Positions 1,754 to 23,994 of a stretch of DNA of 64,000 nucleotides are shown piece by piece. How positions within the stretch are numbered: the stretch's first letter is position 1; every line of letters begins with the position of its first letter. The stretch is from Pseudomonas sp. SJZ079 (GTDB taxonomy: Bacteria > Pseudomonadota > Gammaproteobacteria > Pseudomonadales > Pseudomonadaceae), in contig NZ_VIUH01000024.1 of assembly GCF_007993865.1 (NCBI RefSeq), positions 1-64,000 on the forward strand, in the 5' to 3' direction. A program made the position numbers and the translations under genes. The notes under the pieces were generated by a model. It saw nothing but the letters and a program-made list of their open reading frames with translations, was not told where the DNA came from and searched no databases.

Positions 1754-2241
1754 GCTTGCCTCGTTTTGGAAATCCGTCGCTGCGCGCCGGCACTTTTGCC
1801 CGCGCGCCCGAGCTTTTCGAACGTTCTGCCACAACCCAGGATAGAAGCCCAGAGATGAACACAATAACCAGCACCGCCTACTCGCCCACTTACCGAACAC
1901 TGCCCTCCTCACGAGAGCCTTGTTCGCTAAAATAGTGCCTTTTAGATCGATGCGACTGAGTGTCGCACCTCGACATCCGCGCCCTGCCGGAGGCTGTCTT
2001 GGACTAAGCTGCCTGCAACCAGCGCTCCCCCATAACACCTAGGCGATTGCCCCCTCCACCTGGTGCCGGCATGGAGCCACTGGAGAGCGACACTGCGTTG
2101 CCGAACTGCGCAAAAACGCGTGCCTGAAGCCCTCGAAAGCCCGTTTGTATCGGCGTGTGTCGTTGCAATGACCACCTGCTTTCTACATACTTGCCGCCGT
2201 TTTTTGCCCCTCTAAAACTCCATTAACCATGGAACCCCAGC
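1754..2241. other. Intergenic region upstream of the cco operon
   Basis: These 488 bases hold the divergent promoters of the hydrolase and ccoN. No TTGAT-N4-ATCAA box was found by eye, which would fit a constitutively expressed cco operon rather than an ANR-induced one. A perfect inverted repeat TGCGAC-TGAGT-GTCGCA lies at 1951-1967 and could be an operator. No other gene is supported here. Confidence 0.5.
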
Positions 2242-3684
2242 ATGAGCACAGCAATCAGTCAGACTGCTTATAACTACAAGGTGGTTCGCCAGTTCGCCGT
2301 TATGACGGTGATTTGGGGAGTCATTGGCATGGGTCTAGGCGTGTTCATCGCCTCGCAACTCGTGTGGCCGGAACTCAACCTGGGCCTGGAGTGGACGAGC
2401 TTCGGCCGTCTGCGTCCGCTGCACACCAACGCGGTGATCTTCGCCTTCGGCGGTTGTGCGCTGATGGCAACGTCGCTTTATGTGGTGCAGCGCACCAGTC
2501 AGGTCCGCCTGATTTCCGACTCCTTGGCGGCGTTCGTCTTCTGGGGTTGGCAGTTGGTGATCGTGCTGGCGGTAATCACCCTGCCCCTGGGTTACACCAG
2601 CTCCAAGGAATACGCCGAGCTCGAGTGGCCGATCGACCTGCTTCTGGGCGTCGTCTGGGTCGCTTATGCAGTGGTGTTCTTCGGCACCATCGTCAAGCGC
2701 AAGACCAAGCACATCTATGTCGGCAACTGGTTCTTCGGTGCCTTCATCCTGGTCACCGCGCTACTGCACGTCGTCAACAGCGCCGCGGTTCCGGTCAGCC
2801 TGTTCAAGTCCTATTCGGCTTACTCGGGCGCAACCGACGCGATGATTCAGTGGTGGTACGGGCATAACGCCGTGGGCTTCTTCCTGACCACCGGCTTCCT
2901 CGGCATGATGTACTACTTCGTACCGAAGCAGGCCGAGCGCCCGATCTACTCCTATCGTCTGTCCATCGTGCACTTCTGGGCGCTGATCACCCTGTACATC
3001 TGGGCCGGTCCGCACCACCTGCACTACACCGCTCTGCCGGATTGGGCGCAGAGCCTCGGCATGGCCATGTCGATCATCCTCCTGGCGCCGAGCTGGGGCG
3101 GCATGATCAACGGCATGATGAGCCTGTCCGGCGCTTGGCATAAGCTGCGCACCGACCCGATCCTGCGCTTTTTGGTGGTGTCCCTGGCCTTCTACGGCAT
3201 GTCCACCTTCGAAGGCCCGATGATGGCGATCAAGACGGTCAACGCCTTGTCCCACTACACCGACTGGACCATCGGCCACGTACATGCCGGTGCCCTCGGC
3301 TGGGTGGCGATGATCTCCATCGGTGCGCTGTACCACATGCTGCCCAAGGTCTATGGCCGCGAGCAGATGCACAGCATCGCCCTGATCAACGTGCATTTCT
3401 GGCTGGCGACTATCGGCACCGTGCTGTACATCGCCTCGATGTGGGTCAACGGCATCACCCAGGGCCTGATGTGGCGTGCAGTCAACGAAGACGGCACCCT
3501 CACCTACTCCTTCGTCGAAGCGCTGGAAGCCAGCCACCCGGGTTATGTGGTGCGCATGATTGGCGGCGCGTTCTTCGCCACCGGCATGCTGTTCATGGCT
3601 TACAACACCTTCCGCACCGTGCGTGCCGCCAAGCCGGCTGAATACGATGCGGCTGCGCAGATTCCCGTCGGAGTGGCTCACTGA
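2242..3684 (+). CDS. ccoN: Cytochrome cbb3 oxidase subunit I, CcoN
   Basis: Catalytic subunit of the high-affinity cbb3 terminal oxidase, which reduces O2 to water and pumps protons in the inner membrane. The 480-residue length is normal. About twelve membrane helices and the haem and copper ligands are visible: H61 in LHTNAVIF, H208 in [10 protein letters not shown]258/H259 in GPHHLHY, and H346/H348 in IGHVHAG. It opens the order ccoN-O-Q-P, and its TGA overlaps the ccoO ATG by one base (TGATG), indicating translational coupling. Pseudomonads often carry two cco operons and this window holds one. No ANR box is seen upstream, so it may be the constitutive type. Confidence 0.98.
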
Positions 3685-4292
3685 TGAAACACGAAATCAT
3701 CGAGAAGAATATCGGTCTGATGGCGCTGCTGATGGTACTCGCCGTCAGCATCGGTGGCCTGACCCAGATCGTTCCGCTGTTTTTCCAGGATGTCACCAAC
3801 GAGCCGGTGGAGGGCCTCAAGCCTTACACCGCACTGCAGCTGGAAGGCCGTGACGTTTACATCAAGAACGGCTGCGTCGGCTGCCACTCGCAGATGATCC
3901 GTCCGTTCCGCGCCGAGACCGAGCGCTATGGCCACTACTCGGTCGCCGGTGAAAGCGTCTACGACCACCCTTTCCTGTGGGGCTCCAAGCGTACCGGCCC
4001 GGACCTGGCCCGGGTCGGCGCGCGCTACTCGGACGAATGGCACCGCGCGCACCTGTACAACCCGCGCAACGTGGTGCCTGAGTCGAAGATGCCGGCCTAC
4101 CCCTGGCTGGTCGAGCACAAACTCGACGGCAAGGACACCGCGAAAAAGCTGGAAGTCATGCGTGGCTTTGGCATCCCCTATAGCGATGAAGACATCGCCG
4201 GGGCTAAAGACGCCGTGAAGGGCAAGACCGAAATGGACGCGCTGGTCGCGTACCTGCAGGTTCTCGGCACCTCCATCAAGAACAAACGGTAA
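3684..4292 (+). CDS. ccoO: Cytochrome cbb3 oxidase subunit II, CcoO
   Basis: Membrane-anchored monohaem cytochrome c that passes electrons to CcoN. The 202 residues comprise an N-terminal signal anchor (about residues 10-32) and a periplasmic domain with the haem-binding motif CVGCH (C64, C67, H68). The likely axial Met is M136 in ESKMPAYPW. The start overlaps the ccoN stop by one base, and ccoQ begins six bases after its stop, so all three are co-translated. Confidence 0.98.
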
Positions 4293-4298
4293 CGCGAC

Positions 4299-4484
4299 AT
4301 GGATATCGGGACTATTCGCGGCATAGGCACGGCAGTGGTGTTCATCGCCTTTATCGGCGTGGTGCTCTGGGCCTATAGCAGCAAGCGCAAATCGAACTTC
4401 GACGAAGCCGCCAACCTGCCATTCGCCGATGATCCCAAACCCAAAGCGCGTGACGAGCAATCTTCCAGGAGCAATAACCAATGA
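4299..4484 (+). CDS. ccoQ: Cytochrome cbb3 oxidase small subunit CcoQ
   Basis: A 61-residue protein with one membrane helix (about residues 8-28) and a charged cytoplasmic tail, of usual CcoQ size. In other bacteria CcoQ stabilises the link of CcoP to the core enzyme. Its position between ccoO and ccoP and the four-base ATGA overlap with ccoP support the call. Confidence 0.95.
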
Positions 4485-5470
4485 CCACATTCTGGAATTG
4501 GTATGTAACCATCCTCTCCCTCGGTACCATCTTCGCCCTGACGTGGCTGATCTTCGGCACCCGCAAGGGCCAGCGTCAGGAGAGCACCGAAGAAACCGTC
4601 GGCCACGTGTTCGACGGCATCGAGGAGTATGACAACCCGCTGCCCAAGTGGTGGTTCATGCTGTTCATCGGCACCATCATCTTCGCCCTCGGCTACCTGG
4701 TGCTCTACCCGGGCCTGGGTAACTGGAAAGGCCTGCTGCCGGGCTACGACCACCTCGATAACGAGGCCAAGACGCCGTTCGCCGCCAACGTGCAAATCGC
4801 CGATGGTGGACAGCGCAACGCCGGCTGGACCGGTGTGCACCAGTGGGAAAAGGAAATGGCCAAGGCCGACGCTCAGTACGGGCCGATCTTCGCCAAGTAC
4901 GCGGCGATGCCGATCGAACAGGTTGCCCAAGACGAGCAAGCGCTGAAAATGGGCGGTCGCCTGTTCGCCTCCAACTGCTCGGTGTGCCATGGCTCCGACG
5001 CCAAGGGCGCTTATGGCTTCCCCAACCTGACTGACAATGACTGGCTGTATGGCGGCGAAGCAGCAACCATCAAGACCACCATCATGGGTGGTCGTCAGGC
5101 GGCCATGCCGGCCTGGAAGGACATCCTCGGCGAGGAAGGCATCAAGAACGTTGCCGGCTACGTACGCAGCCTGTCCGGCCTGAAGAGCCCGGAAGGCGTG
5201 GAAGTCGATTTGGCCGCCGGCCAGCAGATCTTCGCCGCCAACTGTGCGGTGTGCCATGGCCCCGACGCGAAAGGCCAGCAGGCCATGGGCTCGGCAAATC
5301 TGACCGACAAGACCTGGCTCTACGGCTCCAGCTTCGCTCAGGTGCAGCAGACCCTGCGTTACGGCCGCAACGGTCGTATGCCGGCTCAGGCAGATCACCT
5401 CGGTAACGACAAGGTGCACCTGTTGGCCGCCTATGTGTACAGCCTGTCGCAGAAGCCTGCGCAGCAGTAA
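4481..5470 (+). CDS. ccoP: Cytochrome cbb3 oxidase subunit III, CcoP
   Basis: Dihaem cytochrome c subunit that receives electrons from soluble cytochromes. The 329 residues have two N-terminal membrane helices (about 5-25 and 57-77) and two periplasmic c-type domains with CSVCH (C166, C169, H170) and CAVCH (C255, C258, H259). Start and ccoQ stop overlap as ATGA. It closes the structural operon. A 146-base gap with two hairpins separates it from ccoG. Confidence 0.98.
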
Positions 5471-5479
5471 GCTTGACCG

Positions 5480-5587
5480 GACAAGCCCTGTATCAAGCGC
5501 GACCCACCGTCGCACCCAAACAGGGCCTTGTCAGGCGTACCATAGCGTAAGAGTGAAATGACCCCGGCTGGCATGTATCGGCCGGGG
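5480..5587 (+). terminator. Two hairpins between ccoP and ccoG
   Basis: The first is GACAAGCCCTGT (5480-5491) pairing with ACAGGGCCTTGTC (5520-5532), with one bulged C and a 28-base loop. The second is CCCCGGC (5562-5568) pairing with GCCGGGG (5581-5587). No U-run follows, so these may attenuate or stabilise transcript ends rather than act as a strong terminator. They fit separate expression levels of ccoNOQP and ccoGHIS. Confidence 0.4.
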
Positions 5588-5616
5588 CAGCCAACCAACC
5601 GCTGTGGTAGCAACTG

Positions 5617-7029
<1,413 letters not shown>

Positions 7030-7043
7030 CGAGTAACCACGGC

Positions 7044-7550
7044 ATGCCTAACGAAACACCGGTCAAACCCTGGTACAAGCAATTCTGGCCCTGGTTCATC
7101 CTGGCGCTCCTGGGCTATTCGGTAGTCCAAGGCCTGACTTTGCTGACCATCGCCACCCGCAATCCGCCAGGGCTGATCTCCGATGACTATTACGAGGTCG
7201 GCAAGGGCATCAACCAGTCACTGGAACGCGAGAAACTCGCCGAGCAGCTGAAGCTACACGCCAGTCTCAAGCTCGATGAAGAGGCCGGCGTGGCCGAGCT
7301 GCATCTGCAAGGCTACAGCGGCCCGGCGCAGTTGGTACTGAACCTGTTGTCGCCGACTCAACCCGAACGCGATCGGCGCATCGTCCTGCAACACCAGGGC
7401 CAGGGTCTGTATCGCGGACAGATGCAGGACGTGGTGCGCGGTCGTCGTTTCGTCGAGCTGATTGGCCAGGAAGGCGGCAAGGATTGGCGCCTGTTCGAAG
7501 AGCGCACCCTGGAAACCGGCAAGACCATCCGCCTCGGCGTTGCGCAGTAA
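7044..7550 (+). CDS. ccoH: FixH-like cbb3 assembly protein CcoH
   Basis: A 168-residue protein with a single N-terminal membrane helix (about residues 13-35, after the charged TPVKPWYKQ leader) and a periplasmic beta-rich domain, as in FixH/CcoH. In other bacteria CcoH is needed for stable cbb3 assembly. It sits between ccoG and ccoI as usual. Confidence 0.95.
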
Positions 7551-7622
7551 GCAATCGGACGACCGATGATGCCCGCTGCCGGACGCACTACGTCCCAACG
7601 TCAGACTCAAGACTGTCCCCCC

Positions 7623-10031
7623 ATGGCGAGTCCCATCCCCTGCTACCACTGCGGCTTGCCGGTTCCAGCCGGCAGCCAGTTTCACGCCCAGGTGCTGGGC
7701 GAGAGCCGGGCGCTGTGCTGCCCCGGCTGCCAGGCGGTGGCCGAAGCCATAGTCGCCGGCGGCCTCGAGCACTACTACAAGCACCGCAGCGAGCGCGCCG
7801 CCAACCCGCAGGAACTGCCGCAAGCGCTGCCCGACGAGCTGGCGCTGTACGACCGCGCCGAGGTGCAGGCGCCCTTCGTCGAACATCAGGGCGCGCTCAG
7901 CGAAACCAATCTATTGATTGAAGGCATCAGTTGCGCCGCCTGCGCCTGGCTGATCGAAAAACACCTGCGTGGCCTGCCCGGCATAGCCGCAGCCAACCTC
8001 AACCTGTCCAACCACCGCCTGCAGGTGCGCTGGGCCGACAGCCAGCTGCCGCTCAGTCAACTGCTAAAGGAACTGCGCAGCATCGGTTATGCAGGCCATC
8101 CCTGGCAGGCCGATGCCGCGGCCGAGCAACTTGCCCGGGAAAACCGCCGGGCCATGCGCCAATTGGGGGTGGCCGGGTTGCTGTGGATTCAGGTGATGAT
8201 GGCCACCATGGCCACCTGGCCGGAATTCAACATCGACCTCAGCCCCGAGCTGGACAAGATTCTGCGCTGGGTCAGCCTGTTCCTCACCACACCGATCGTC
8301 TTCTACTGTTGCGGGCAGTTCTTCCGCGGCGCCCTGCGCGATTTGCGCACCCGCCACCTGAGCATGGACCTCTCGGTCTCCCTGGCGATAGGCGGCGCCT
8401 ATGCGGCCGGCATCTGGTCGACGGTCACCGGAGATGGCGAGCTGTATTTCGACGCGGTGGGCATGTTCGCCCTGTTCCTCCTGGCCGGCCGCTACCTGGA
8501 ACGCCGAGCCCGCGAGCGCACGGCGGCGGCCACCGCGCAGCTTGTGCAACTATTGCCGGCCTCCTGTTTACGCCTCGACGCCGATGGCCAGACCCAGCGC
8601 GTTCTGCTCAGCGAGTTGCAGACTGGCGAACGGGTGCTGGTGCCGCCCGGCGCCCTGCTGCCTGCCGACGGACGCATCCTCAGCGGTCAGTCCAGCGTCG
8701 ATGAGTCCCTGCTGACCGGCGAATACCTGCCTCAGCCACGCGGTGTCGGCGATAGCGTCACCGCCGGCACCCTTAACGTCGAAAGCCCGCTGACGGTCGA
8801 GGTCGAAGCCCTTGGCGATGCCACCCGTCTGTCGGCCATCGTGCGCCTGCTCGAACGCGCGCAGAGCGATAAGCCGCGCCTGGCCGAAATAGCCGAACAG
8901 GCCGCGCAATGGTTCTTGTTGATCGTCCTGCTTGCCGCGACCATCGTCGGCCTGGTCTGGTGGCAGATCGACTCGTCCCGCGCCTTCTGGGTGGTGTTGG
9001 CCCTGCTGGTCGCCACCTGTCCCTGCGCCCTGGCACTGGCGACCCCGACTGCATTGACCGCGGCGACCGGCAGCCTGCACAAACTCGGCATGCTGCTGAC
9101 CCGCGGCCATGTGCTGGAAGGCCTCAACCAGATCGACACGGTGATCTTCGACAAGACCGGCACCCTCACCGAAGGACGCCTGACCCTGAGCGCCATTCAT
9201 CCGCTCGGCGCGCTGGACAGCGACGCCTGCCTGGCCCTGGCGGCCGCCCTGGAGACTCGCTCCGAACACCCCATCGCCCGCGCCTTCGGCCGTGCCACGC
9301 AAGCCGCCGAACGGGTCGACAGCATTCCCGGATTGGGCCTGCAGGGCTGGGTTGCGGATCGCCAGTTGCGCATCGGTCAGGCCGCCTTTGTCTGCGAACT
9401 CAGCGGCCAGTCCCCACCAGCGATTCCCGCCGATCGGGGCCAATGGCTGTTGCTCGGCGACCGCCTGGGCCCGCTCGCCTGGTTCGTCCTCGACGACCGC
9501 CTGCGCGACGACGCCCCCGCGCTGCTCGCCGCCTGCCGCGAGCGTGGCTGGCAGGTGCTGCTGCTGTCCGGCGACAGCTCGCCGATGGTCGCCGAAGTGG
9601 CGCGTCAACTGGGCATCGAGCAGGCCTATGGCGGCCTGACGCCCGATGCGAAACTGGCCGAGCTGAAAAAGCTGCATGAACAAGGCCGCCGCGTACTGAT
9701 GCTCGGCGACGGGGTGAATGACGTGCCGGTGCTGGCAGGCGCCGATATCAGCGTGGCCATGGGCAGCGCCACCGACCTGGCGAAAACCAGCGCCGACGCC
9801 GTGCTGCTGAGCAACCGATTGACCGCCCTGATCCAGGCCTTCACCCTGGCGCGACGCACGCGTCGGATCATCATCGAGAACCTGGCCTGGGCCAGCCTGT
9901 ACAATGGCCTGGTCCTGCCGTTCGCCGCCCTTGGCTGGATCACTCCGATCTGGGCCGCCCTCGGTATGTCGCTCAGCTCGCTGCTGGTGGTGCTCAATGC
10001 CTTACGCTTGACCCGAGTACCCAAGCCGTAG
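7623..10031 (+). CDS. ccoI: Copper-exporting P1B-type ATPase CcoI for cbb3 maturation
   Basis: Moves Cu(I) across the inner membrane for the CuB site of cbb3 oxidase. From ATG 7623 it is 802 residues. An N-terminal Cys-rich segment (CYHCGLP, then CCPGC) is followed by a heavy-metal domain with CAAC in GISCAACAW, membrane helices, the actuator motif LLTGE, the transport motif CPC in ATCPCALA, the phosphorylation site DKTGTLTEG and the hinge GDGVNDVP. The start at 7623 matches my recollection of the family N-terminus just before CYHCGLP. ATG 7566 is in frame and cannot be excluded. The stop codon lies in an inverted repeat (10028-10106). Confidence 0.95.
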
Positions 10032-10106
10032 GCTGGGTAGAGCCGTTTTTTGGCGAAACCCAGTCTGCTCAACCGCTGGATTGCGCTGCGCTCTAGGCCA
10101 GCCTAC
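10028..10106. repeat. REP-like inverted repeat between ccoI and ccoS
   Basis: GTAGGCTGG (10028-10036) and CCAGCCTAC (10098-10106) are perfect inverted ends of a 79-base segment with inner partial symmetry (CTGGGTAGAGC, GCGAAACCCAG). This resembles the dispersed extragenic palindromes common in Pseudomonas. The left arm overlaps the ccoI stop codon. The element may stabilise the upstream transcript. Confidence 0.5.
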
Positions 10107-10136
10107 CCCGACCCTCACCAGTCGCCCGGAGACCCC

Positions 10137-10346
10137 ATGCCCGCGCTGTACATCCTGATTCCCGTCGCCCTGGTGCTGGTCGCCTTCGCCATCTGGCTGT
10201 TCTTCTGGGCGGTCGACAGCGGCCAGTACGACGACCTGGACGGCCCCGCCCATAGCATCCTGTTCGACGACGACGACCCGATGCACAAGGCCGGTGTCGA
10301 CCAGGCGCAAAAACAGGACGAACCCAAGGACCCGCCGCATGCCTGA
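10137..10346 (+). CDS. ccoS: cbb3 oxidase maturation protein CcoS
   Basis: A 69-residue protein with one N-terminal membrane helix (MPALYILIPVAL onward, residues 2-24) followed by the typical CcoS stretch FFWAVDSGQYDDLDGPA and an acidic tail. CcoS is required for insertion of haem and copper into CcoN in other bacteria. The longer frame from 10050 reads through the upstream repeat and is rejected. The downstream gene overlaps by 8 bases. Confidence 0.95.
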   Translation: MPALYILIPVALVLVAFAIWLFFWAVDSGQYDDLDGPAHSILFDDDDPMHKAGVDQAQKQDEPKDPPHA

Positions 10347-11022
10347 GCTGGCACCTCTGCTGTTGTCCGCGTTGATTCTCGGCTTGCTCGGTGGCGGGCA
10401 TTGCCTGGGCATGTGTGGCGGCCTGATGGGCGCCTTGACCCTGGCCATTCCCGCCGAGCATCGGGCCCAACGCTTTCAGCTGTTACTGAGCTATAACCTC
10501 GGGCGCATTTGCAGTTACGCCATCGCCGGCCTGCTGCTTGGCCTGGCGGGCTGGGCCGTGGCCAGCAGCCCGGCGGCCATGGTGCTGCGGGTGATCGCGG
10601 CGCTGCTGCTGATCGCCATGGGCCTGTACCTGGCCGGCTGGTGGAGCGGCCTGACCCGCATCGAAGCGCTCGGCCGCGGCGTGTGGCGGCATATCCAGCC
10701 ACTGACCCGGCGCTTCATGCCGGTCACCAGCCTGCCACGCGCCTTACTGCTGGGCGGCTTGTGGGGCTGGCTGCCCTGCGGCCTGGTCTACAGCACCCTG
10801 CTCTGGGCGGCGAGCCAGGGCGACGCACTCGATAGCGCGGCGCTGATGCTGGCCTTCGGTCTCGGCACCCTACCGGTGCTGCTGGCCACCGGCATGGCCG
10901 CCGAACGCCTGACGGCCTTGTTGCGCAAACGCGGAGTACGCATGGCCGGCGGCCTGCTGGTCATTCTATTCGGCCTGTGGACCTTGCCCGGCCCTCATCA
11001 GCACTGGTTGATGGGCCATTAA
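10339..11022 (+). CDS. Sulfite exporter TauE/SafE- or UreH-like membrane protein
   Basis: A 227-residue polytopic membrane protein with about six helices, overlapping the end of ccoS by 8 bases. It carries GGGHCLGMCGGLMG near the N-terminus and GLWGWLPCGLVYS in the middle. These paired Cys/Gly-rich motifs are typical of the UreH-like family that follows ccoS in proteobacteria. A role in metal or thiol handling for oxidase assembly is inferred from linkage and the conserved Cys residues. It is not proven. Confidence 0.88.
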   Translation: MPELAPLLLSALILGLLGGGHCLGMCGGLMGALTLAIPAEHRAQRFQLLLSYNLGRICSYAIAGLLLGLAGWAVASSPAAMVLRVIAALLLIAMGLYLAGWWSGLTRIEALGRGVWRHIQPLTRRFMPVTSLPRALLLGGLWGWLPCGLVYSTLLWAASQGDALDSAALMLAFGLGTLPVLLATGMAAERLTALLRKRGVRMAGGLLVILFGLWTLPGPHQHWLMGH

Positions 11023-15035: not shown

Positions 15036-16322
15036 ATGGACGACAGCCAAAGCAATTTGGCCAGTGCTCTGATCGAACACCTGGACATCGGCGTAATCAT
15101 CCTGGATTCAGAGCTGCGCATTCAGTATTGGAACGGCTTCATCAGCCAGTGTGTCGGCAAGGCGCTCGAGCACGCCAGGCAACAGCCGCTGACCCAGGTT
15201 TTCCCCGAAGCCGATACCCCTCGCCTCGACCAGATGGTGATCCAGGCCCGCGATCAGGGGTTGCACGTCATCACCCAGTGGCACGAAAACGCCCCCCTCA
15301 TCCACTTGCCCTATACACCCTCAGGTCAATCGGTGCCCTCCGTGCTGCAGAGTAGCCTGATATTTCCTTTCAGCGACCCGGGTGGCCAGCAATGCTTCGG
15401 CCTGCTGCTCTATGACACCAGCGAATTCGCCCGTTCCAACGAGCAGCTGGATGCGGCGCTGAATGCCTTGAGCAGCAAGCAGATCGATCAAGAGCAATTG
15501 ATCAAGAAGCTGGAGACAGCCAATGCGCAGCTCCTGCAATCGGAAAAGCTCGCCGCCATCGGTCAGCTCGCGGCCGGCGTGGCGCATGAGATCAACAACC
15601 CGATTGGCTATGTCTTTTCTAACCTGAAGACCCTCGCCAGCTACGTCCAGGACCTGCTGCGCATCATCGACGCGGTGGACAGCGTGGCCAGCCTCGACGA
15701 GTTGCGCCAGCTCAAACGCAGCCTGGAGTACGACTACATCCGTAGCGATGTCGAAGCGCTGATCAACGAATCCGAGGATGGCATCGATCGGGTCAAGAAA
15801 ATCATCACCGCACTCAAGGACTTTTCGCACATAGAGGAGGAGGAGTTTCGTCTCGCCGACCTGCACCGTGGCCTGGACACCACACTTAACGTGGTCAATA
15901 ACGAGCTCAAGTACAAAGCCGAGGTCGTCAAGGAGTATGGCGAGCTGCCAGAACTGGAGTGCATCCCCTCGCAGATCAACCAGGTGGTGATGAACCTGCT
16001 GGTCAACGCCGCTCACGCCATGGATAAGTTCGGCCGCATCACCCTGCGTAGTGGCCACGAGGGGGATTGGGTCTGGCTGGAGGTGGAAGACACCGGCAAA
16101 GGCATCGAGCCGCACCTGCTCCACCGCATCTACGAACCCTTCTACACCACCAAACCGGTGGGCAAAGGGACCGGTCTGGGCTTATCGCTGTCGTACAACA
16201 TCGTGCAGAAACACCATGGTCGTATCGAGGTGAGCAGCGCGCTCGGCCAAGGCACGCGTTTCCGCATCTGGCTGCCGGTCTGTCAGCCGCTCGCGGTACA
16301 TATGGGGGGCGTAACCTCATGA
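15036..16322 (+). CDS. PAS-domain sensor histidine kinase
   Basis: A 428-residue soluble kinase with no membrane segment. It has a PAS-like sensor (about residues 10-125), a coiled coil, a HisKA box with H in GVAHEINNPIGYV, an N box in NLLVNAAHAM, and G boxes EDTGKGIE and GKGTGLGLS. The HEINNP H-box is typical of kinases feeding FixJ- and RpfG-like regulators. It starts a run of four same-strand genes. Its TGA overlaps the next ATG (ATGA, 16319-16322), so it is probably partner to the following response regulator. Confidence 0.93.
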   Translation: MDDSQSNLASALIEHLDIGVIILDSELRIQYWNGFISQCVGKALEHARQQPLTQVFPEADTPRLDQMVIQARDQGLHVITQWHENAPLIHLPYTPSGQSVPSVLQSSLIFPFSDPGGQQCFGLLLYDTSEFARSNEQLDAALNALSSKQIDQEQLIKKLETANAQLLQSEKLAAIGQLAAGVAHEINNPIGYVFSNLKTLASYVQDLLRIIDAVDSVASLDELRQLKRSLEYDYIRSDVEALINESEDGIDRVKKIITALKDFSHIEEEEFRLADLHRGLDTTLNVVNNELKYKAEVVKEYGELPELECIPSQINQVVMNLLVNAAHAMDKFGRITLRSGHEGDWVWLEVEDTGKGIEPHLLHRIYEPFYTTKPVGKGTGLGLSLSYNIVQKHHGRIEVSSALGQGTRFRIWLPVCQPLAVHMGGVTS

Positions 16323-17662
16323 ACGAACAACCCAGGGCGACCTTGCTGCTGGTTGACGATGAGGAAAACATCCTCAACAGCCTGCGCCGTATCCTCCGTC
16401 ATGAGCCCTACCAGGTCCTCACCGCCAGTGACGGCGTTCAGGCATTGCAGCAACTCAGCCAACAGCCGATCGATCTGGTGATATCCGATTCGCGCATGCC
16501 GGGCATGGACGGCGCCACCCTGCTGGCCAAAATTCATCAGCGCTGGCCCGATTGTCTGCGCATCCTGTTGACCGGTCACACCGACATCGGCGCCACCATC
16601 AAGGCGATCAACCAGGGACAGATCTACCGCTACATCAGCAAACCCTGGGATGACGATGAAATGCGCCTGATGATCCGCCAAGCCCTGGCGTTTCAGCACT
16701 CCGAGCGCGAGCGCGAGCGCCTTGAACAGCTGACCCATGAGCAGAACCAGCGCCTGCAAGAACTCAACGCGACCCTCGAGCAACGGGTGCGCGACCGCAC
16801 CAGCGAGCTGCAACAGACTGCCGACATGCTCGACCTGGCCTTCGCCGAGCTGAAACACAGCTACATGACGGCCACCGAGGTGTTTTCACTGCTACTCAAC
16901 CAACGCTTGCCCAAGGACAAGCAGACCAACGCCCAGGTCATCGCACTGGTGCGTGCCTACGCCGACCATCACAACCTCGATGAGGGGCCCAGCCGTGACC
17001 TGAGCATGGCTGCCGCGCTGTACAACCTCGGTAAGCTGAGCTGGGATGACCGGCTGCTCAACCGGCCGGCGGATGTGCTGTACCGCGAAGAGCGCCAGCG
17101 CTACCAACTTTACCCGGTTATTGGCGAGAACCTGCTGATGACCCTCGAGCCGCTGCAGGATGCGGCCCTGCTGATACGCCATCATCAGGAACGCTGGGAC
17201 GGTCGTGGCTTCCCCGACCATCTGAAGGAGCTGGAGATTCCCTTCGGTTCACGCCTGATCAAACTGGCCGTGGACTTTATCGAGTTGCAGTGCGGCCTGT
17301 TCCTGGATCGCCACCTGAACCGTGATGAGGCGCTGCTGCTGATCAAGAAATACGCCGGCACCCTCTATGACCCGCAGCTATGCGAACGCTTCATCAATCT
17401 CTGCACCAGCCTGGCGCCAGACCTGGCCATGGCTGACGCCACTATCGTGCCTCTGGATACCCGCCGCCTGGCACCCGGCATGACCCTGGCACGCAACCTT
17501 CACGCGGCCAACGGCATGTTGCTGCTCAACGAAGGCAAACAACTGACTCGCCTGCTGATCGACAAGCTGGTCGCGTTCGAAGCCGCCGAGGGCTCGCACT
17601 ACACCCTCTTCATCCACAAGCCCGAAGTCACCCCCATCAGTCAGCAGGAGCACGTCGGATGA
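16319..17662 (+). CDS. Response regulator with REC and degenerate HD-GYP domain
   Basis: The 447-residue protein has an N-terminal REC domain with acidic pocket D13/D14, phosphoacceptor D57 and K108. A coiled coil spans about 125-180. A C-terminal domain is aligned with RpfG-type HD-GYP phosphodiesterases. The HD metal dyad is replaced by Y235-N236 (ALYNLGKLS where ALLHDIGK is expected). The first motif His is also missing, while HH288-289 and DGRGFP remain. It is therefore probably not an active c-di-GMP phosphodiesterase and may instead bind the nucleotide or a partner. The ATG 16319 start overlaps the kinase stop, and the longer frame from 16067 is rejected. Confidence 0.9.
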   Translation: MNEQPRATLLLVDDEENILNSLRRILRHEPYQVLTASDGVQALQQLSQQPIDLVISDSRMPGMDGATLLAKIHQRWPDCLRILLTGHTDIGATIKAINQGQIYRYISKPWDDDEMRLMIRQALAFQHSERERERLEQLTHEQNQRLQELNATLEQRVRDRTSELQQTADMLDLAFAELKHSYMTATEVFSLLLNQRLPKDKQTNAQVIALVRAYADHHNLDEGPSRDLSMAAALYNLGKLSWDDRLLNRPADVLYREERQRYQLYPVIGENLLMTLEPLQDAALLIRHHQERWDGRGFPDHLKELEIPFGSRLIKLAVDFIELQCGLFLDRHLNRDEALLLIKKYAGTLYDPQLCERFINLCTSLAPDLAMADATIVPLDTRRLAPGMTLARNLHAANGMLLLNEGKQLTRLLIDKLVAFEAAEGSHYTLFIHKPEVTPISQQEHVG

Positions 17663-18195
17663 TCAAAATTCAACTGCTGGATGATGAACCACACGTACTC
17701 AGCGCCCTGCAACGGCTGTTACATCCCTACGACTGGGTGGTGCATGCATTCAGCAACGCGCAGACGGCCCTCGAGGCATTGACCGAACATGAGTACGCGG
17801 TAATCGTCTCTGACCTGAGGATGCCGGAGCTGGATGGCATCACCTACCTGCAGTTCGCCCGCCAGCGGCAGCCCAACGCCCTGCGCATCCTGCTCAGCGC
17901 GCACGGCGACCGCCAGTCGATGTTGCAAGCGATCAACCAGGCAGAAATCTACCGTTTCATCTCCAAGCCCTGGGCCGACTTCGAAGTCGAAGCCGCCTTG
18001 CGTGCCGCCATCGATCTGTTTTTGCTACGCGACGAGAACCAGCGCTTATTGCTACAAGTGCGCCGGCAACAGAGTGACCTGGACCGCCAGGAGCAGGAGT
18101 TGCTGCGCCTGGAGGTCGAGTACCCAGGTATTACCCGCGTACGCCGCGACAGCGACGGCTCGGTGCTGATCGACGAGGTTGACGACCCGCTCTGA
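17659..18195 (+). CDS. Single-domain REC response regulator with coiled-coil tail
   Basis: A 178-residue protein with a REC domain (acidic residues in LLDDEPHV, phosphoacceptor D52 in VSDLRMPELDG, conserved Lys in ISKPW), then a helical coiled-coil tail (about 125-158) and a short acidic end. It has no DNA-binding or enzymatic output, so it may relay phosphate or compete for the kinase. The start overlaps the previous stop (ATGA). The REC sequence is close to those in the genes either side. Confidence 0.88.
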   Translation: MIKIQLLDDEPHVLSALQRLLHPYDWVVHAFSNAQTALEALTEHEYAVIVSDLRMPELDGITYLQFARQRQPNALRILLSAHGDRQSMLQAINQAEIYRFISKPWADFEVEAALRAAIDLFLLRDENQRLLLQVRRQQSDLDRQEQELLRLEVEYPGITRVRRDSDGSVLIDEVDDPL

Positions 18196-18243: not shown

Positions 18244-21200
18244 ATGGATATCAAGACTCGCCACCTGAGCTATCAAGCTTTCTTGCACGTCCAGGGTTTT
18301 GCCCTGCTGATCATCGGCAGTATCAGCCTGTGCGGTTATCTAGTCGCCGAAACCCCTAGCGCTTTTAGTCTGGTGCTGCTGCCCGACAGCGCCTTGGCTG
18401 TTCTGCTGCTGGGCCTTGGCCTGCTGGGCTGCGCCAATCAGCGGAACCCGCTCTGCCAACTGTCCTCAACCCTGGTGCTGGGCATTGGCCTGTACAGCCT
18501 GGCCCACAACCTTCAGCTCGCGGACAGCAACCAGGGCCGCTCACTGATCAGTGGTTTCCTGCACATGCGCAGCCCTACGGCGCTGCTGTTCTGTCTGCTG
18601 GCGGTTGGCCTGCTCAGTCAACCATTGGGCACCTGGGGTAAAAGGCTGAGTACCGGGCTGGGGTTAATGGTGATTGGTCTCAGCGGCCTCTCGCAGCTGG
18701 CGCCCAGCGTAGCGCCCCTCGGCGCTTGGCGCCTGGGCTTCAGCCACGACGTGAATAACCTGGCCAATCTCTTCGGCCTGAGCATGGGCCTGGCCCTGTT
18801 CTGTCTCAACGGGCTGCCCAGCAAACGGGAACACCTGCTTGATCGCCGGACTTTGCTCGCGGGTGCCCTGGGTACCCTACTGACCTGTGGTAGTTGGTAC
18901 CTGCTGAGCCTGCAGAACATCGAGGCGAACCAGCGGCAAAGTACGCTGTTACTGTCCGAGCTGGGTAGCTCCATCGAGCGGACATTCGATACTCACCGGC
19001 TGACGATCCAACGCATGGCTGAGCGCTGGCAGATTGATGGGCAGCTACCCAGCCCAGCTAAATGGCAGCAAGAGTCCAGTGGCTATTTGCGTGACTTCCC
19101 CGATATCGCACTCATAGCCCTACTGGACGAACAGCTCCGTCCACAACGGTTGTTCAGCCGCGACCATACCGAAACGGACTGGTTGGATGATCTGCTCCGC
19201 CGTCCCAGCCAGCGCGACTGGCTGCAGCGCTCTCCCCCTGCGTTCCAAGCACGCCTGAGCCCGGCACTCAGCCTGGCGGCCCAGCACAACAGCCTGATCG
19301 CCATCCCGCTGAACCTGTCCGCCAAACCTGGTTGGACCTTGGTCGCCAGCCTCGATCTGGTTCGCACACTGGACGGGGTGCTGGGCACGCAACCGCAGGG
19401 TCTGAGCATGCGCCTCTACGAGGACCAGCAGCTGCTGTTCGACTCGGCGCCGCAACACCCCAGCGCATCGCTCAACTCGCTGGGCGAACGACTGCTGCAC
19501 GGTCCGGGCAGCGACACTTGGCGTTTGGTCACTTACCAGAACCTCAATGCCTCCAGTCAGACCGCAAGCCATCTACCCAGCCTGGTGATGCTGTTCGGCC
19601 TGACCTTCAGTTTTTTCATCATGCTCAGTCAGCGGCTCGGACGCCTGGCCGTCGAGCGCTCGCGCCACCTGCACCTGGTCAACCGGGCACTGGAAACCAG
19701 CCTGCGATATCAAGATAACCTGCAGGCCCTGAACCAACGGATCATGGATTTTTCCATGGACGTACTCTGTTCCATCGACGAACACGGTCTTTTCGCCCAG
19801 ATCAGTCCCTCGGCCAGCAGCGTGCTCGGCTACCGGCCGGACGAACTGATCGGTCGGCCCTACCTGAGTCATGTAGTGCCGGAGGATCGCCAGGGCACCC
19901 AAGCAATAGTCCAGGCCATGATGGCAGGCGAGGAGCACACGGGCTTTCGTAACAGCTACCAGCGCAAAGACGGCAGCATCGTGCATCTGCTCTGGTCCGG
20001 CGGCTGGTCCGAGAGTGATCGCACCCTGTTCGCCGTGGCGCATGACATTACTCGTCTGGTACAGAACGAGGCCTACGCCGAGGATCAACGCGACATCCTC
20101 AGCATGATTTCCACCGACCAGCCGCTGGCGGACATCCTCAAAGTCATCTGTCAGGTGACCGAGGTCCAGTTGCCCGGCACCTACTGCTCGGTGCTACTGG
20201 TGGACAAGGAACAGCAGCACCTGTTGCTCGGTGCCGCGCCGAACCTGCCGCACAGCTACACCCAGGCCCTGCACGGGATGAAAGTCGGTCCCGCTGCCAG
20301 CGCTTGCAGCACTGCGGTTCAGCGCCGCCAGTTGGTGATAAGCGAAGACATCGACGGCGACCCGCTCTGGCAGGGCTACCGCGCCCTGGCCCTCGGTCAC
20401 GGCCTGCAGGCTTGCTGGTCGATTCCATTGATTTCCCATCACGGCGCTGTACTGGGCACCTTCGCCATCTACCATCACGAACCCAAGCAACCAGACGACG
20501 ACCAGTTGCAGCTGATCGGCACGGCTGGACAACTGGCCGCCATCGCCATCGAACGCCAGCACGACCGTCTGCGCTTGCAGGAAAGCGAGCAGCGCTACCG
20601 TTCGCTGTTCACCTTCAACCCCGATCCGGTGTTCTCCTTCGACCTGGACGGCCAGATCGAGAGCATGAACCAGGCGGGCTGCCAGCTCTCCGGTTACAGC
20701 GAGGAAGAACTGCTTGGCCAACCCATCTCGTTGCTGCTGCAGAACGACGACCTGGAAGCCTTCCACAGCCACCTCAAAGCCGCCCGCGAGGGTGGCACCC
20801 AGCGTCACGCCGCGCGTTGTAACAGCCGCGACGGTCACGTGCTGGAGCTGGACATCACGACCCTGCCGATCATCATCGACGCGCAGATAGTCGGGGTGTT
20901 CTGCATCGCCAAGGACATCAGCGAACGCAACCGCATGACCCGTGCACTGCGCGAGGCGTTGCAGCACTCCGAGCACCAGGCCGAACTGCTGCGCGGGATG
21001 ACCGACACAGCGGTGAACATCAACAGCATCGTCGACAGTCAGACATTGCTCGACTACCTGAGCGAACGGCTGCGCGGGCTGATCGGCAGTCACCAGGCCA
21101 TCGTCAGCCTGCTGCATGGCAGTGACTGGCGGGAGGCCGTTCATGCGGTAGCGCTCTCGGAACGCTATGCCGACTGGCAGCAAGACGACGGCCAAACCGC

Positions 21201-23994
21201 CGGCAGCGATCTCTATGCACTGGTGTGCAGCACCGACCAATCGGTACTGCTCAGCCAGGCAGAACTGGGCAGCCACCCGCACTGGCGTGAGCACGCCAAG
21301 CAAAGCCTCAACCTTCCGCCGATGCGCGGCTGGCTGGCCGTGCCGCTAAAGGACTATGCCGGCAACAACCTGGGTCTGCTGCAACTGTCTGACAAACAGC
21401 ATGGCGAGTTCAATCAGGATGACCTGGCCATCACCCAGCAGTTCGCTCAGATGGCCGTGGCGGTGCTCGAGAATAACCGCCTGATGCGTGCAGTGATAAA
21501 GGGCGAACAGCGCCTGAAAGCACAACTGGAGTTCACTTCGGCAATCACCGACAGCATCGCCGAGGGGCTGCTGGCGATTGACCGCGAGGGCCACCTGAGC
21601 TTCATCAACCCAACCGCCGCCGCCATGCTTGGCCAATCTGTCGACAGGCTGCTCGGCCAGCCGTTGGCCGAGCACCTGCCGTTCCCGCTCGAACAAACCC
21701 AGGGCAAAGGCAGTCAGCATGGCGAACTGAACCTGCCGCAAGGCGCACAGAGCGAACGCTATATTGCCTACGACAGCGCACCGTTGCTCGACGACGACGG
21801 CCCGCAAGGCTGGGTCGTGGCATTTCGCGACATCACCGCGAACAAGGAGGCCGACAAGCAACTGCGTCTGTTCCAGCGCAGCCTGGAGGCCAGCTTCAAC
21901 GGTGCCTTGATCTGCGATGCTCAGGCCGACGACATGCCGATCATCTACGTAAACCCAGCCTTCGAGCGCATCACCGGTTACAGCGCGGCCGAAGCCCTGG
22001 GCCGCAACTGTCGTTTCCTCCAGGGCGAGGAACGCGAACAACCGGGGGTCGCTGAAATCCATCGGTGCCTGGCCCAGCATCGAGACGTGCACGTCGTGCT
22101 GCGCAACTTCCGCAAGGACGGCACACCATTCTGGAACGCCCTGTACATTGCCCCGGTCCCCAACGAGCACGGGCAGGTCACCCACTTCATCGGCGTGCAG
22201 AACGATATTTCCGAGCAGAAACGCTTCGAGTCCGAGTTGGCCTACAACGCCAGCCACGATGTACTCACCGGCTTACCCAATCGCTCGCTGCTGGAAGATC
22301 GCTTAAGCCAAGGCTGCCGGATCAGCCATCGCTACAAACGCAGCCTGGCGGTGATGTTTATCGATATGGATGGCTTCAAACCGATCAATGACAGCCTGGG
22401 CCATAACGTGGGTGACCAGATTCTGGTCGAGGTGGCGCGGCGCCTGAACCAGCAGGTGCGCCCTGGAGACACGGTCGCGCGTCTTGGCGGTGATGAATTC
22501 ATTGTCATTCTGCCGGACCTGGCCCGCGAGGAAGATGTGTTACTGGTGGCCGAGCGGATAGTCCAGAACCTTGCCCGCCCTTACCACGTCGCGCATGTCG
22601 AACAGCACATCACCGCGAGCATCGGCATCACCCTCAGCGATGGCAGCATCGCGCAACCGATGTTGCTGATTCAGCAGGCCGATATGGCGATGTATAAGGC
22701 CAAGCAACAAGGACGTAATAACTATCAGTGGTACACAGAGGATCTCAACCAGAAGGTCAGCGAACGCGTCACCCTGCGCAATGAGTTGCAGAAGGCCATC
22801 GAAGCCGAGGCCTTCCAGCTCTATTACCAGCCGCAGATCGACGGGCGTAGTGGCCGAGTCGTGGGCTACGAGGCACTCCTGCGTTGGCATCACGCCGAGC
22901 GCGGCTTCATTCCACCGGCACACTTTATCCCGGTGGCCGAAGATACCGGACAGATCATTCCGCTCAGCGAGTGGGTACTGAGCACCGCCTGCCGCGCAGC
23001 CCGCTCGCTGGCCAACCAGGGGTTCAACGGCGCGGTGATGGCCGTGAATGTCTCGCCCGTACAGTTCCAGCGAGCCGGCTTCGTCGAGCAGGTGCGCAAC
23101 ACCCTGGAGCAGACCCAGTTGCCGGCCGATTTGCTGGAACTGGAGATCACCGAAACCGTATTACTGGATAACGCGGAAAAGGCCATTATCACCCTGCATG
23201 CACTGAAAGAGCTCGGTGTACACATCTCCATCGACGACTTCGGCACGGGTTTCTCCAGCCTGAATTACCTCAAGCGCCTGCCGATCGACAAGGTCAAGAT
23301 CGATCGCTCCTTTGTCCAGGAGGTGATCAGCGACCGTCACGACTCCGCCATCACCCAGGGCATCATCTCCATGGCCCACCACCTGAAACTCAAGGTGCTC
23401 GCCGAAGGCGTGGAGACCGAGCCACAACTCGCCTTCCTGAAAAAAAGTCGCTGTGACGAATTCCAGGGCTACTACTTTGCCAAGCCCATGCCGCTGCCGC
23501 AGCTGGAGAGTTACCTGCGCAAACAGCATGAGACACGCGACTCGCAGCAACAGAACCGCGCGCCAGACAGCCAGGCGCAAACCCTGCTGCTGCTCGATGA
23601 CGAAGAAAACATTCTGCGGGCACTAACCCGGGTACTGCGCCGCGATGGCTATCGAATCATCACCGCCAGCCGCGCTCAAGATGCCTTCGCCCTGTTGGCC
23701 AAGCACAATGTGCAGGTGATCCTCTCGGACCAGCGCATGCCGGAGATGAACGGTACCGAGTTCTTCAGCCGGGTGAAGAGCCTCCACCCCGAGACCATCC
23801 GCATCGTACTGTCCGGCTACACCGACCTGAAATCGGTGACCGATGCGATCAACCAGGGCGCGATCTACAAGTTCCTCACCAAACCCTGGGACGACGAACA
23901 CCTGCGCACCACCATTGCCCAAGCCTTCCAGCATCACAGTCTGGCGATGGACAAAGACGACAACGCCCGGCCCGCGGATGAAGAGCAGGCCTAG
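18244..23994 (+). CDS. Giant PAS-GAF-LOV-GGDEF-EAL-REC membrane signalling protein
   Basis: A 1916-residue c-di-GMP signalling protein. It has about six N-terminal membrane helices (to about residue 225), a likely periplasmic sensor (230-445), a further helix (about 447-465), PAS (500-605), GAF (630-770), PAS (784-900), GAF (930-1085), PAS (1099-1205) and a LOV-type PAS (1209-1335). GGDEF (about 1340-1500, RLGGDEF), EAL (about 1520-1765) and a C-terminal REC (about 1780-1895) follow. EAL residues appear intact (YEALLRW, NVSP, DDFGTGFSS, KIDRSF, EGVETE). The LOV motif GRNCRFLQG with adduct Cys 1256, plus RNFRKDG and GVQND, predicts blue-light sensing. The C-terminal REC is unusual and resembles the RECs upstream. 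Confidence 0.93.
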   Translation: MDIKTRHLSYQAFLHVQGFALLIIGSISLCGYLVAETPSAFSLVLLPDSALAVLLLGLGLLGCANQRNPLCQLSSTLVLGIGLYSLAHNLQLADSNQGRSLISGFLHMRSPTALLFCLLAVGLLSQPLGTWGKRLSTGLGLMVIGLSGLSQLAPSVAPLGAWRLGFSHDVNNLANLFGLSMGLALFCLNGLPSKREHLLDRRTLLAGALGTLLTCGSWYLLSLQNIEANQRQSTLLLSELGSSIERTFDTHRLTIQRMAERWQIDGQLPSPAKWQQESSGYLRDFPDIALIALLDEQLRPQRLFSRDHTETDWLDDLLRRPSQRDWLQRSPPAFQARLSPALSLAAQHNSLIAIPLNLSAKPGWTLVASLDLVRTLDGVLGTQPQGLSMRLYEDQQLLFDSAPQHPSASLNSLGERLLHGPGSDTWRLVTYQNLNASSQTASHLPSLVMLFGLTFSFFIMLSQRLGRLAVERSRHLHLVNRALETSLRYQDNLQALNQRIMDFSMDVLCSIDEHGLFAQISPSASSVLGYRPDELIGRPYLSHVVPEDRQGTQAIVQAMMAGEEHTGFRNSYQRKDGSIVHLLWSGGWSESDRTLFAVAHDITRLVQNEAYAEDQRDILSMISTDQPLADILKVICQVTEVQLPGTYCSVLLVDKEQQHLLLGAAPNLPHSYTQALHGMKVGPAASACSTAVQRRQLVISEDIDGDPLWQGYRALALGHGLQACWSIPLISHHGAVLGTFAIYHHEPKQPDDDQLQLIGTAGQLAAIAIERQHDRLRLQESEQRYRSLFTFNPDPVFSFDLDGQIESMNQAGCQLSGYSEEELLGQPISLLLQNDDLEAFHSHLKAAREGGTQRHAARCNSRDGHVLELDITTLPIIIDAQIVGVFCIAKDISERNRMTRALREALQHSEHQAELLRGMTDTAVNINSIVDSQTLLDYLSERLRGLIGSHQAIVSLLHGSDWREAVHAVALSERYADWQQDDGQTAGSDLYALVCSTDQSVLLSQAELGSHPHWREHAKQSLNLPPMRGWLAVPLKDYAGNNLGLLQLSDKQHGEFNQDDLAITQQFAQMAVAVLENNRLMRAVIKGEQRLKAQLEFTSAITDSIAEGLLAIDREGHLSFINPTAAAMLGQSVDRLLGQPLAEHLPFPLEQTQGKGSQHGELNLPQGAQSERYIAYDSAPLLDDDGPQGWVVAFRDITANKEADKQLRLFQRSLEASFNGALICDAQADDMPIIYVNPAFERITGYSAAEALGRNCRFLQGEEREQPGVAEIHRCLAQHRDVHVVLRNFRKDGTPFWNALYIAPVPNEHGQVTHFIGVQNDISEQKRFESELAYNASHDVLTGLPNRSLLEDRLSQGCRISHRYKRSLAVMFIDMDGFKPINDSLGHNVGDQILVEVARRLNQQVRPGDTVARLGGDEFIVILPDLAREEDVLLVAERIVQNLARPYHVAHVEQHITASIGITLSDGSIAQPMLLIQQADMAMYKAKQQGRNNYQWYTEDLNQKVSERVTLRNELQKAIEAEAFQLYYQPQIDGRSGRVVGYEALLRWHHAERGFIPPAHFIPVAEDTGQIIPLSEWVLSTACRAARSLANQGFNGAVMAVNVSPVQFQRAGFVEQVRNTLEQTQLPADLLELEITETVLLDNAEKAIITLHALKELGVHISIDDFGTGFSSLNYLKRLPIDKVKIDRSFVQEVISDRHDSAITQGIISMAHHLKLKVLAEGVETEPQLAFLKKSRCDEFQGYYFAKPMPLPQLESYLRKQHETRDSQQQNRAPDSQAQTLLLLDDEENILRALTRVLRRDGYRIITASRAQDAFALLAKHNVQVILSDQRMPEMNGTEFFSRVKSLHPETIRIVLSGYTDLKSVTDAINQGAIYKFLTKPWDDEHLRTTIAQAFQHHSLAMDKDDNARPADEEQA

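Follow-up and report, generated by a model that had tools for sequence, protein, structure and literature searches.

Does a protein that joins a blue-light-sensing fold to the enzymes of cyclic di-GMP (c-di-GMP) turnover respond to light alone, or is light one of several signals that converge on it? This question is raised by a 64,000-nucleotide stretch of Pseudomonas sp. SJZ079 (contig NZ_VIUH01000024.1, positions 1 to 64,000; hereafter the window), in which an open reading frame (ORF) on the forward strand (18244-23994) encodes a membrane-anchored sensor protein ending in LOV, GGDEF, EAL and REC domains. The ORF translates to 1916 amino acids, the length already given in a preliminary description, which had read the last PAS unit as a LOV domain and had predicted light control of c-di-GMP turnover. 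Sequence, conservation and the selection acting on the protein give good support to a flavin-binding LOV photosensor attached to GGDEF-EAL, and light control of turnover would be the likeliest consequence. The prediction was nevertheless incomplete, because the protein carries an intact C-terminal receiver tied to a co-encoded histidine kinase, so that light is probably only one of several inputs. On balance, we favour a membrane c-di-GMP enzyme gated by both light and phosphorylation, in which the LOV domain would most likely switch the EAL domain and the kinase would act on REC.

The order of the domains is membrane/Cache-like, PAS, GAF, PAS, GAF, PAS, LOV, GGDEF, EAL and REC. Pfam recognizes four PAS stretches, two GAF stretches, GGDEF (residues 1336-1493), EAL (1512-1748) and the receiver (1782-1891). 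The preliminary description was silent on the two GAF stretches, the membrane/Cache-like N-terminus, the C-terminal REC, the kinase operon and a histidine at position 1273.

The LOV domain, delimited from Pfam, NCBIfam and PDB matches, conservation and alignment, covers residues 1210-1325 (21871-22218, forward strand as for all features of this protein); the interval in which it had first been noticed, 21871-22245, corresponds to residues 1210-1334, i.e. the domain and the start of the following linker. Its membership was scored on the nine residues of a published filter, which in BsYtvA are Gly59, Asn61, Cys62, Arg63, Phe64, Leu65, Gln66, Asn94 and Asn104 (PMC9098866), plus BsYtvA Gln123. All have their counterparts here (G1253, N1255, C1256, R1257, F1258, L1259, Q1260, N1288, N1298 and Q1319), as expected of a canonical LOV core. 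The motif GRNCRFLQG starts at residue 1253 (nucleotide 22000), which places the adduct-forming Cys at residue 1256 (codon TGT, 22009-22011), as had been proposed; RNFRKDG lies at residue 1287 and GVQND, also pointed out earlier, at residue 1317. The NCBIfam YtvA model spans residues 1209-1334 with 149.7 bits, under its whole-protein cut-off of 250, presumably because the effector is different.

A comparison with the sequences of the PDB gives 163 distinct matches to the LOV stretch at E<=1e-3, of which the 60 listed span E-values from 5.3e-37 to 4.8e-23. The best of those listed is 7r5n (5.3e-37), named only 'Sensory box protein', and LOV proteins dominate among them, including 3sw1 (PpSB1-LOV), 7a6p (PpSB2-LOV), YtvA, phototropins, aureochromes and blue-light histidine kinases; some top chains bear general names, and the LOV identity of 3sw1, 7a6p, 2pr5, 6rhg and 6hmj was established separately. 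Two other PAS domains of the same protein served as non-LOV controls. PAS3 yields 7 matches at E<=0.01, the best at 2.6e-5 and none from the short-LOV group, and PAS2 yields 16 matches, the best being 3lyx at 5.9e-9, with short-LOV chains only at 4e-4 or weaker. A chance motif or a non-LOV PAS domain is ruled out by the E-values, these controls and conservation.

The LOV domain is also the best-conserved sensor domain of the protein. Among the window's protein and nine full-length orthologs (L041-L049, all titled Pseudomonas, e.g. P. taeanensis, P. resinovorans and P. aestuarii), 74 of its 116 positions (64%) are invariant, against 31-46% in the five other PAS/GAF domains (PAS1 43%, GAF1 46%, PAS2 35%, GAF2 31% and PAS3 44%). 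The corresponding figures are 69% for GGDEF, 68% for EAL, 74% for REC, the most conserved of all domains, and 15-20% for the N-terminal parts; the tenth nearest locus (L050, from P. indica) was omitted from these counts, its sensor half being another ORF. The ratios of nonsynonymous to synonymous substitution rates (dN/dS), obtained from the single pair formed by the window and P. taeanensis (L041), are 0.046 for LOV, 0.052 for EAL, 0.032 for REC and 0.083 for GGDEF, and 0.079, 0.110, 0.149, 0.261 and 0.363 for GAF1, PAS3, PAS1, PAS2 and GAF2, respectively. The LOV domain is kept about as strictly as a catalytic domain, and a decaying gene is ruled out by dN/dS. The gene is patchy within the genus: LOV matches at E<=1e-45 occur in 19 of 398 genomes (own included), and matches of at least 80% identity in a frame of 1,798-1,943 residues occur in 7 of 398.

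Several points weigh against the idea that this domain senses light. By dN alone, GAF1 (0.031) is slightly under LOV (0.038), and the dS of LOV is the highest (0.830), which contributes to its low ratio. Other points come from an alignment (A1) of the window's sequence with 40 of the best 80 among at least 558 confirmed LOV loci of a genome scan. These 40 were selected because they match LOV-GGDEF-EAL over a long stretch; the presence of EAL therefore partly reflects the selection, but the state of the catalytic residues does not. The relatives' frames were read stop to stop, and their lengths may exceed those of the true proteins. In 24 REC-bearing rows (window included; L092 excluded, the Asp in its REC column being a tail misalignment), the adduct Cys is lost in two (L053 and L095) and the signalling Gln is replaced in six; therefore, a core that comes with REC and kinase may be insensitive to light in some relatives. 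Furthermore, the study of RprR, a similar protein that earlier work had termed light-responsive, reported that light changed transcription little and for the most part regardless of rprR (PMC12802281).

Taken further, the Cys losses and the behaviour of RprR, whose phenotypes were seen in the dark, could mean that the LOV domain binds flavin but serves chiefly redox or structural purposes, with little physiological effect of light and other inputs dominating. RmcA of P. aeruginosa, whose LOV-like PAS lacks the Cys and has been tied to phenazines and light (PMC8846402), would be a precedent, and the 1916-residue protein has several further sensor domains. This explanation is unlikely, since a pure redox role would presumably not need the Cys. 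Indeed, none of the 11 closest sequences (window included) has lost Cys or Gln, the two LOV Asn are present in all 41 aligned sequences and the Cys in 37 of them, and the Cys is found in all 26 genus LOVs retrieved. A photosensory role of the domain hence remains the preferred reading.

The site expected to hold the phosphate of flavin mononucleotide (FMN) is its weakest point. C1256, R1257, R1264, V1269 and H1273 align gap-free with C53, R54, R61, R66 and R70 of the PpSB-type chain 7r4s (numbering from PMC5314338 and PMC13322254, with the offset read off this alignment). According to the same two papers, R54 and R70 lie at the FMN phosphate, and the slow dark recovery of PpSB1 is linked to R61 and R66. 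Of the two FMN-phosphate arginines of PpSB2-LOV, the Arg54 equivalent is therefore present and the Arg70 equivalent is His1273 (codon 22060-22062); the Arg61 equivalent, a His in PpSB2, is Arg in the 1916-residue protein. Among the 41 aligned sequences, position 1273 is Arg in 38, Lys in one and His in two (the window and L041), and in the genus LOVs His is again restricted to the window and its nearest relative (2 of 26). Such a residue could make FMN binding weaker or affect dark recovery.

In the extreme case, His1273 would break the phosphate site and leave the domain largely flavin-free in this species pair, in line with the confinement of His to these two among the sequences examined and with the short LOV W619_1-LOV, which is only about 10% loaded (PMC5314338). 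This is highly improbable, as Arg1257 and Arg1264 (Arg54 and Arg61 of PpSB1-LOV) are present, the LOV dN/dS of 0.046 was obtained for exactly this species pair, and W619_1 is poorly loaded despite having all four arginines (PMC5314338). Flavin binding with altered recovery is expected instead.

What would such a photosensor control? The preliminary description had LOV directly joined to intact GGDEF and EAL domains, and Pfam and the alignment bear this out. The linker between LOV and GGDEF (D1321 to L1341, 22204-22266) has 21 residues in all 41 aligned sequences, which, counted as in PMC10396304, is the short class. The GGDEF domain (22249-22722) has an intact GGDEF motif (1415-1419) and I-site RPGD (1406-1409), and the EAL phosphodiesterase domain (22777-23487), whose fold matches PaMorA and BifA, has its catalytic residues intact. 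All 41 aligned sequences have the EAL motif and the Glu, Asp, Lys and Gln residues examined, and 40 have N1602, whereas the GGDEF motif is kept in 24 and altered in 17. In Marinobacter, all seven LOV-GGDEF-EAL-REC proteins (L060, L066, L067, L068, L072, L075 and L078) have an altered GGDEF (SGDEF/SGDEY) and an intact EAL. This contrast between EAL and GGDEF, the findings on the linker class (PMC10396304) and the phosphodiesterase SL2 of Synechococcus elongatus, discussed below, favour control of hydrolysis, and the best reading of the sequence is that the enzyme would be mainly a phosphodiesterase.

The GGDEF and I-site of the window's protein being intact, a light-driven cyclase has to be considered, in which light would drive c-di-GMP synthesis by GGDEF rather than hydrolysis by EAL. 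The LOV-GGDEF proteins of the LadC type are precisely light-activated cyclases, those with a 21-residue linker being activated of the order of 15-fold (PMC10396304). Nevertheless, earlier LOV-GGDEF parts taken from LOV-GGDEF-EAL proteins with a 21-residue linker showed no light-regulated synthesis according to the same paper, which mentions that one of them was devoid of the GGDEF residues and regards light control of EAL as plausible in such proteins. Together with the frequent alteration of GGDEF, in particular in the REC-bearing Marinobacter forms, and the constancy of EAL, this makes light-driven synthesis quite doubtful. Control of hydrolysis is thus retained as the more credible output. 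Structural models add little: the fold search with LOV-GGDEF-EAL-REC returned ordinary GGDEF-EAL matches, hardly probed the LOV and REC parts and led to no deduced function, and the AlphaFold model has a predicted TM-score (pTM) of 0.47, which does not fix the relative placement of the domains.

The second input would come through the C-terminal receiver (23587-23916; Pfam Response_reg, 77.6 bits), which has the acidic pair D1785 and D1786, the acceptor D1829, S1857 and K1880. Upstream of the LOV gene and on the same strand, a histidine kinase gene (15036-16322) encodes a protein without membrane segment (top 19-residue hydropathy mean 1.15), with a weak N-terminal PAS, a HisKA with an H-E-I-N-N box and a HATPase_c. 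It is followed by a gene for a REC-HD-GYP response regulator of the NosR family (16319-17662, +; NCBIfam NF053512, 570.4 bits for a cut-off of 400) and by one for a lone receiver domain with a C-terminal extension (17659-18195, +; Pfam Response_reg). ATGA overlaps join the kinase stop to the HD-GYP start and the HD-GYP stop to the lone REC start. The regulator has YN for HD and GFP for GYP in 13 of 13 aligned sequences (window included) and is probably catalytically inactive. The order kinase, NosR-family regulator, lone REC and LOV gene is kept in L041-L049, i.e. in nine of the ten nearest loci, with the kinase adjoining there too and regulators 67-93% identical to that of the window. The tenth, L050, has no HD-GYP match and its kinase is on the opposite strand. 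Chance neighbourhood of these three genes is ruled out by this conservation.

The linkage extends beyond the closest relatives. Of the best 80 loci, 72 have GGDEF and EAL after LOV and were counted, the eight without EAL being left out; a kinase gene was scored wherever tblastn aligned more than 180 residues with the kinase of the operon within the fetched stretch, a rule that misses distant kinases and applies to stretches of varying length. A kinase gene is nearby in 21 of 22 REC-bearing loci versus 2 of 50 REC-less LOV-EAL loci, and an HD-GYP gene in 11 of 22 versus 2 of 50; the Fisher p-values of this count ignore the relatedness of the loci. The same holds inside Marinobacter (7 of 7 REC-bearing versus none of the single REC-less locus, L120), and in Pseudomonas all 10 REC-bearing loci have the kinase, as does one REC-less locus with a broken gene (L051) but not the other (L056). 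Among the REC-less loci, L051 and L109 have the kinase, the former being scored REC-less only owing to an insert of about 1 kb that parts LOV-GGDEF from EAL-REC; the sole REC-bearing locus without a kinase, L077, has just 592 bases fetched upstream of its frame. In addition, L062 was scored REC-less by a 90-residue cut, though its receiver Asp aligns. Phosphorylation of REC by the co-encoded kinase is suggested by linkage in loci that are related and thus non-independent, a point that tempers this part of the favoured reading.

The operon recalls the NosP-NosK-NosR system of Burkholderia and the Hno system of Shewanella, which share with it a soluble kinase with an HEINN box and a regulator with REC and a degenerate HD-GYP (PMC12570481, PMC6335343). 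In Burkholderia, NosK transfers phosphate to NosR, a regulator whose HD-GYP is degenerate (PMC12570481); in Shewanella, HnoD, likewise with a degenerate HD-GYP, suppresses the phosphodiesterase HnoB, an EAL protein, and the kinases relieve this suppression (PMC6335343), so that an EAL enzyme is a target there as well. Unlike these systems, the operon described here has no NosP (FIST) gene, the only FIST match of the genome being on another contig (C32), and the likely EAL partner bears LOV, GGDEF and a REC of its own, since it would be the LOV protein itself. We tentatively put forward, as a possibility short of an even chance, that the whole forms a photoreceptor version of the NosR/Hno circuit, in which one kinase would phosphorylate the degenerate HD-GYP regulator, the lone receiver and the tail of the LOV-GGDEF-EAL enzyme, and blue light and phosphorylation would form a logic gate on one phosphodiesterase.

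The favoured mechanism may be described as follows. Blue light would produce a flavin-Cys1256 adduct in the LOV domain, and the resulting change would reach GGDEF-EAL via Gln1319, the DIS motif and the 21-residue linker of fixed length, altering turnover; the EAL phosphodiesterase is most likely the part that would be switched. A second input would be the phosphorylation of Asp1829 by the co-encoded kinase, beside which the NosR-like regulator and the lone REC may act, and the N-terminal Cache-like, PAS and GAF domains could supply further inputs. The domains, their intact residues, their conservation, the purifying selection and the gene linkage are observed, while flavin binding, photocycle, phosphotransfer and the direction of the output are predicted from them.

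LOV-GGDEF-EAL proteins are a known kind, and about 18% of the 1390 bacterial LOV proteins of a 2014 survey carry GGDEF or GGDEF-EAL (PMC4844311). SL2, with LOV, GGDEF and EAL in one protein as here, is a blue-light phosphodiesterase; compared by description and not by sequence, it differs in that the text consulted mentions no REC, Cache or GAF parts (PMC8846402). RprR (Rsp0254) of Ralstonia pseudosolanacearum is similar in having a membrane region, a periplasmic Cache, PAS, LOV, GGDEF and EAL, the last three being highly conserved, and differs by a HAMP, the motif GRNCRFLH and an effect on transcription that hardly depends on light, no REC or GAF being mentioned in the consulted text (PMC12802281). 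PpSB1-LOV and PpSB2-LOV of Pseudomonas putida are among the closest solved sequences listed (3sw1, 2.4e-35; 7a6p, 5.1e-34), and Arg54 and Arg61 of PpSB1 are Arg in the LOV domain of the window, but these proteins are short, without effector, and their Arg70 and Arg66 are replaced here by His and Val. The LadC cyclases (8c05) share the 21-residue linker of the short class, under the same counting, but are without EAL, REC and upstream sensors, and those tested raise c-di-GMP synthesis in light (PMC10396304). A LOV-GGDEF-EAL-REC protein with a linked kinase was not found described in the portions of the open-access literature searched, supplements being outside the search. The same core is found again in Pseudomonas, Marinobacter, Phytohalomonas and Burkholderiales, whereas the upstream sensors vary or form a separate protein. 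For RprR, almost no light effect was reported in a recent study. The present family provides a natural test of how a single c-di-GMP enzyme integrates light with a two-component input, and its natural variants can be compared: some have Leu for Gln, His for Arg, no Cys or an altered GGDEF, and REC may be there or missing.

The sensors upstream of LOV begin with a helical membrane region (residues ~5-265), a Cache-like alpha/beta domain (~271-432) and a last membrane helix (together 18244-19713), assigned with AlphaFold2 and Foldseek. The AlphaFold2 model of this N-terminus (pLDDT confidence 82.8, pTM 0.72) has a helical, presumably membrane, region and then the alpha/beta domain, which in Foldseek matches mostly periplasmic ligand-binding sensor domains (KinD, Tlp3, PctC, CqsR), several of them named Cache, at E 2e-5 to 1e-3, with TM-scores that are low by query (0.25-0.39) in nearly all rows. 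The first 490 residues match no Pfam family at E 0.01, and dCache_1 is found at 0.00088 in only 1 of 25 aligned members for this region. PAS1 (residues ~490-610, 19711-20073), one of the four Pfam PAS stretches with boundaries set by eye, is followed by GAF1 (627-770, 20122-20553; the best GAF_2 stretch), PAS2 (784-892, 20593-20919; the best PAS stretch), GAF2 (~925-1075, 21016-21468; the second Pfam GAF stretch, boundaries by eye) and PAS3 (1104-1204, 21553-21855; a weak PAS_7 stretch, below its cut-off).

Two relatives show rearranged genes. In P. indica (L050), separate ORFs encode the sensor half (2156-6826; residues 3-1248 at 50% identity) and the LOV-GGDEF-EAL-REC half (6534-10508), which suggests that the sensory part has undergone fusion or fission. 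In L051, from Pseudomonas fluorescens HK44, the insert mentioned above (~9347-10404) has a 350-residue stop-to-stop frame on the opposite strand and is perhaps an insertion sequence.

The genome of strain SJZ079, which has 53 GGDEF matches (two frames counted twice), encodes other LOV or LOV-like proteins, whose domains were assigned by eye; PHY and BLUF searches gave no match in it, each having matched 1 of 14 control genomes. On contig C26 (L121), a 1329-residue frame has the order REC-GAF-PAS-LOV-GGDEF-EAL-REC, with the Cys kept and Leu for Gln; in its C-terminal receiver, which is probably not phosphorylated, the acceptor Asp is replaced by Gln and the conserved Lys by Thr. Leu for the signalling Gln with the Cys kept occurs in 9 of the 26 genus LOVs (L148/L002, i.e. 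positions 11144-11542 of C26 itself, and L132, L139-L143, L149 and L150), and LOVs with this replacement can still signal (PMC9098866). On contig C2 (L003, 379157-379519), the LOV-like domain (GSNDRFLL) of a membrane PAS/GGDEF protein has Asp for Cys but keeps the Gln, and may be a light-blind relic. Contig C20 (L004, 1294-1647) encodes a PpSB-type short LOV with an intact YQDCRFLQ, a second photoreceptor candidate in this genome.

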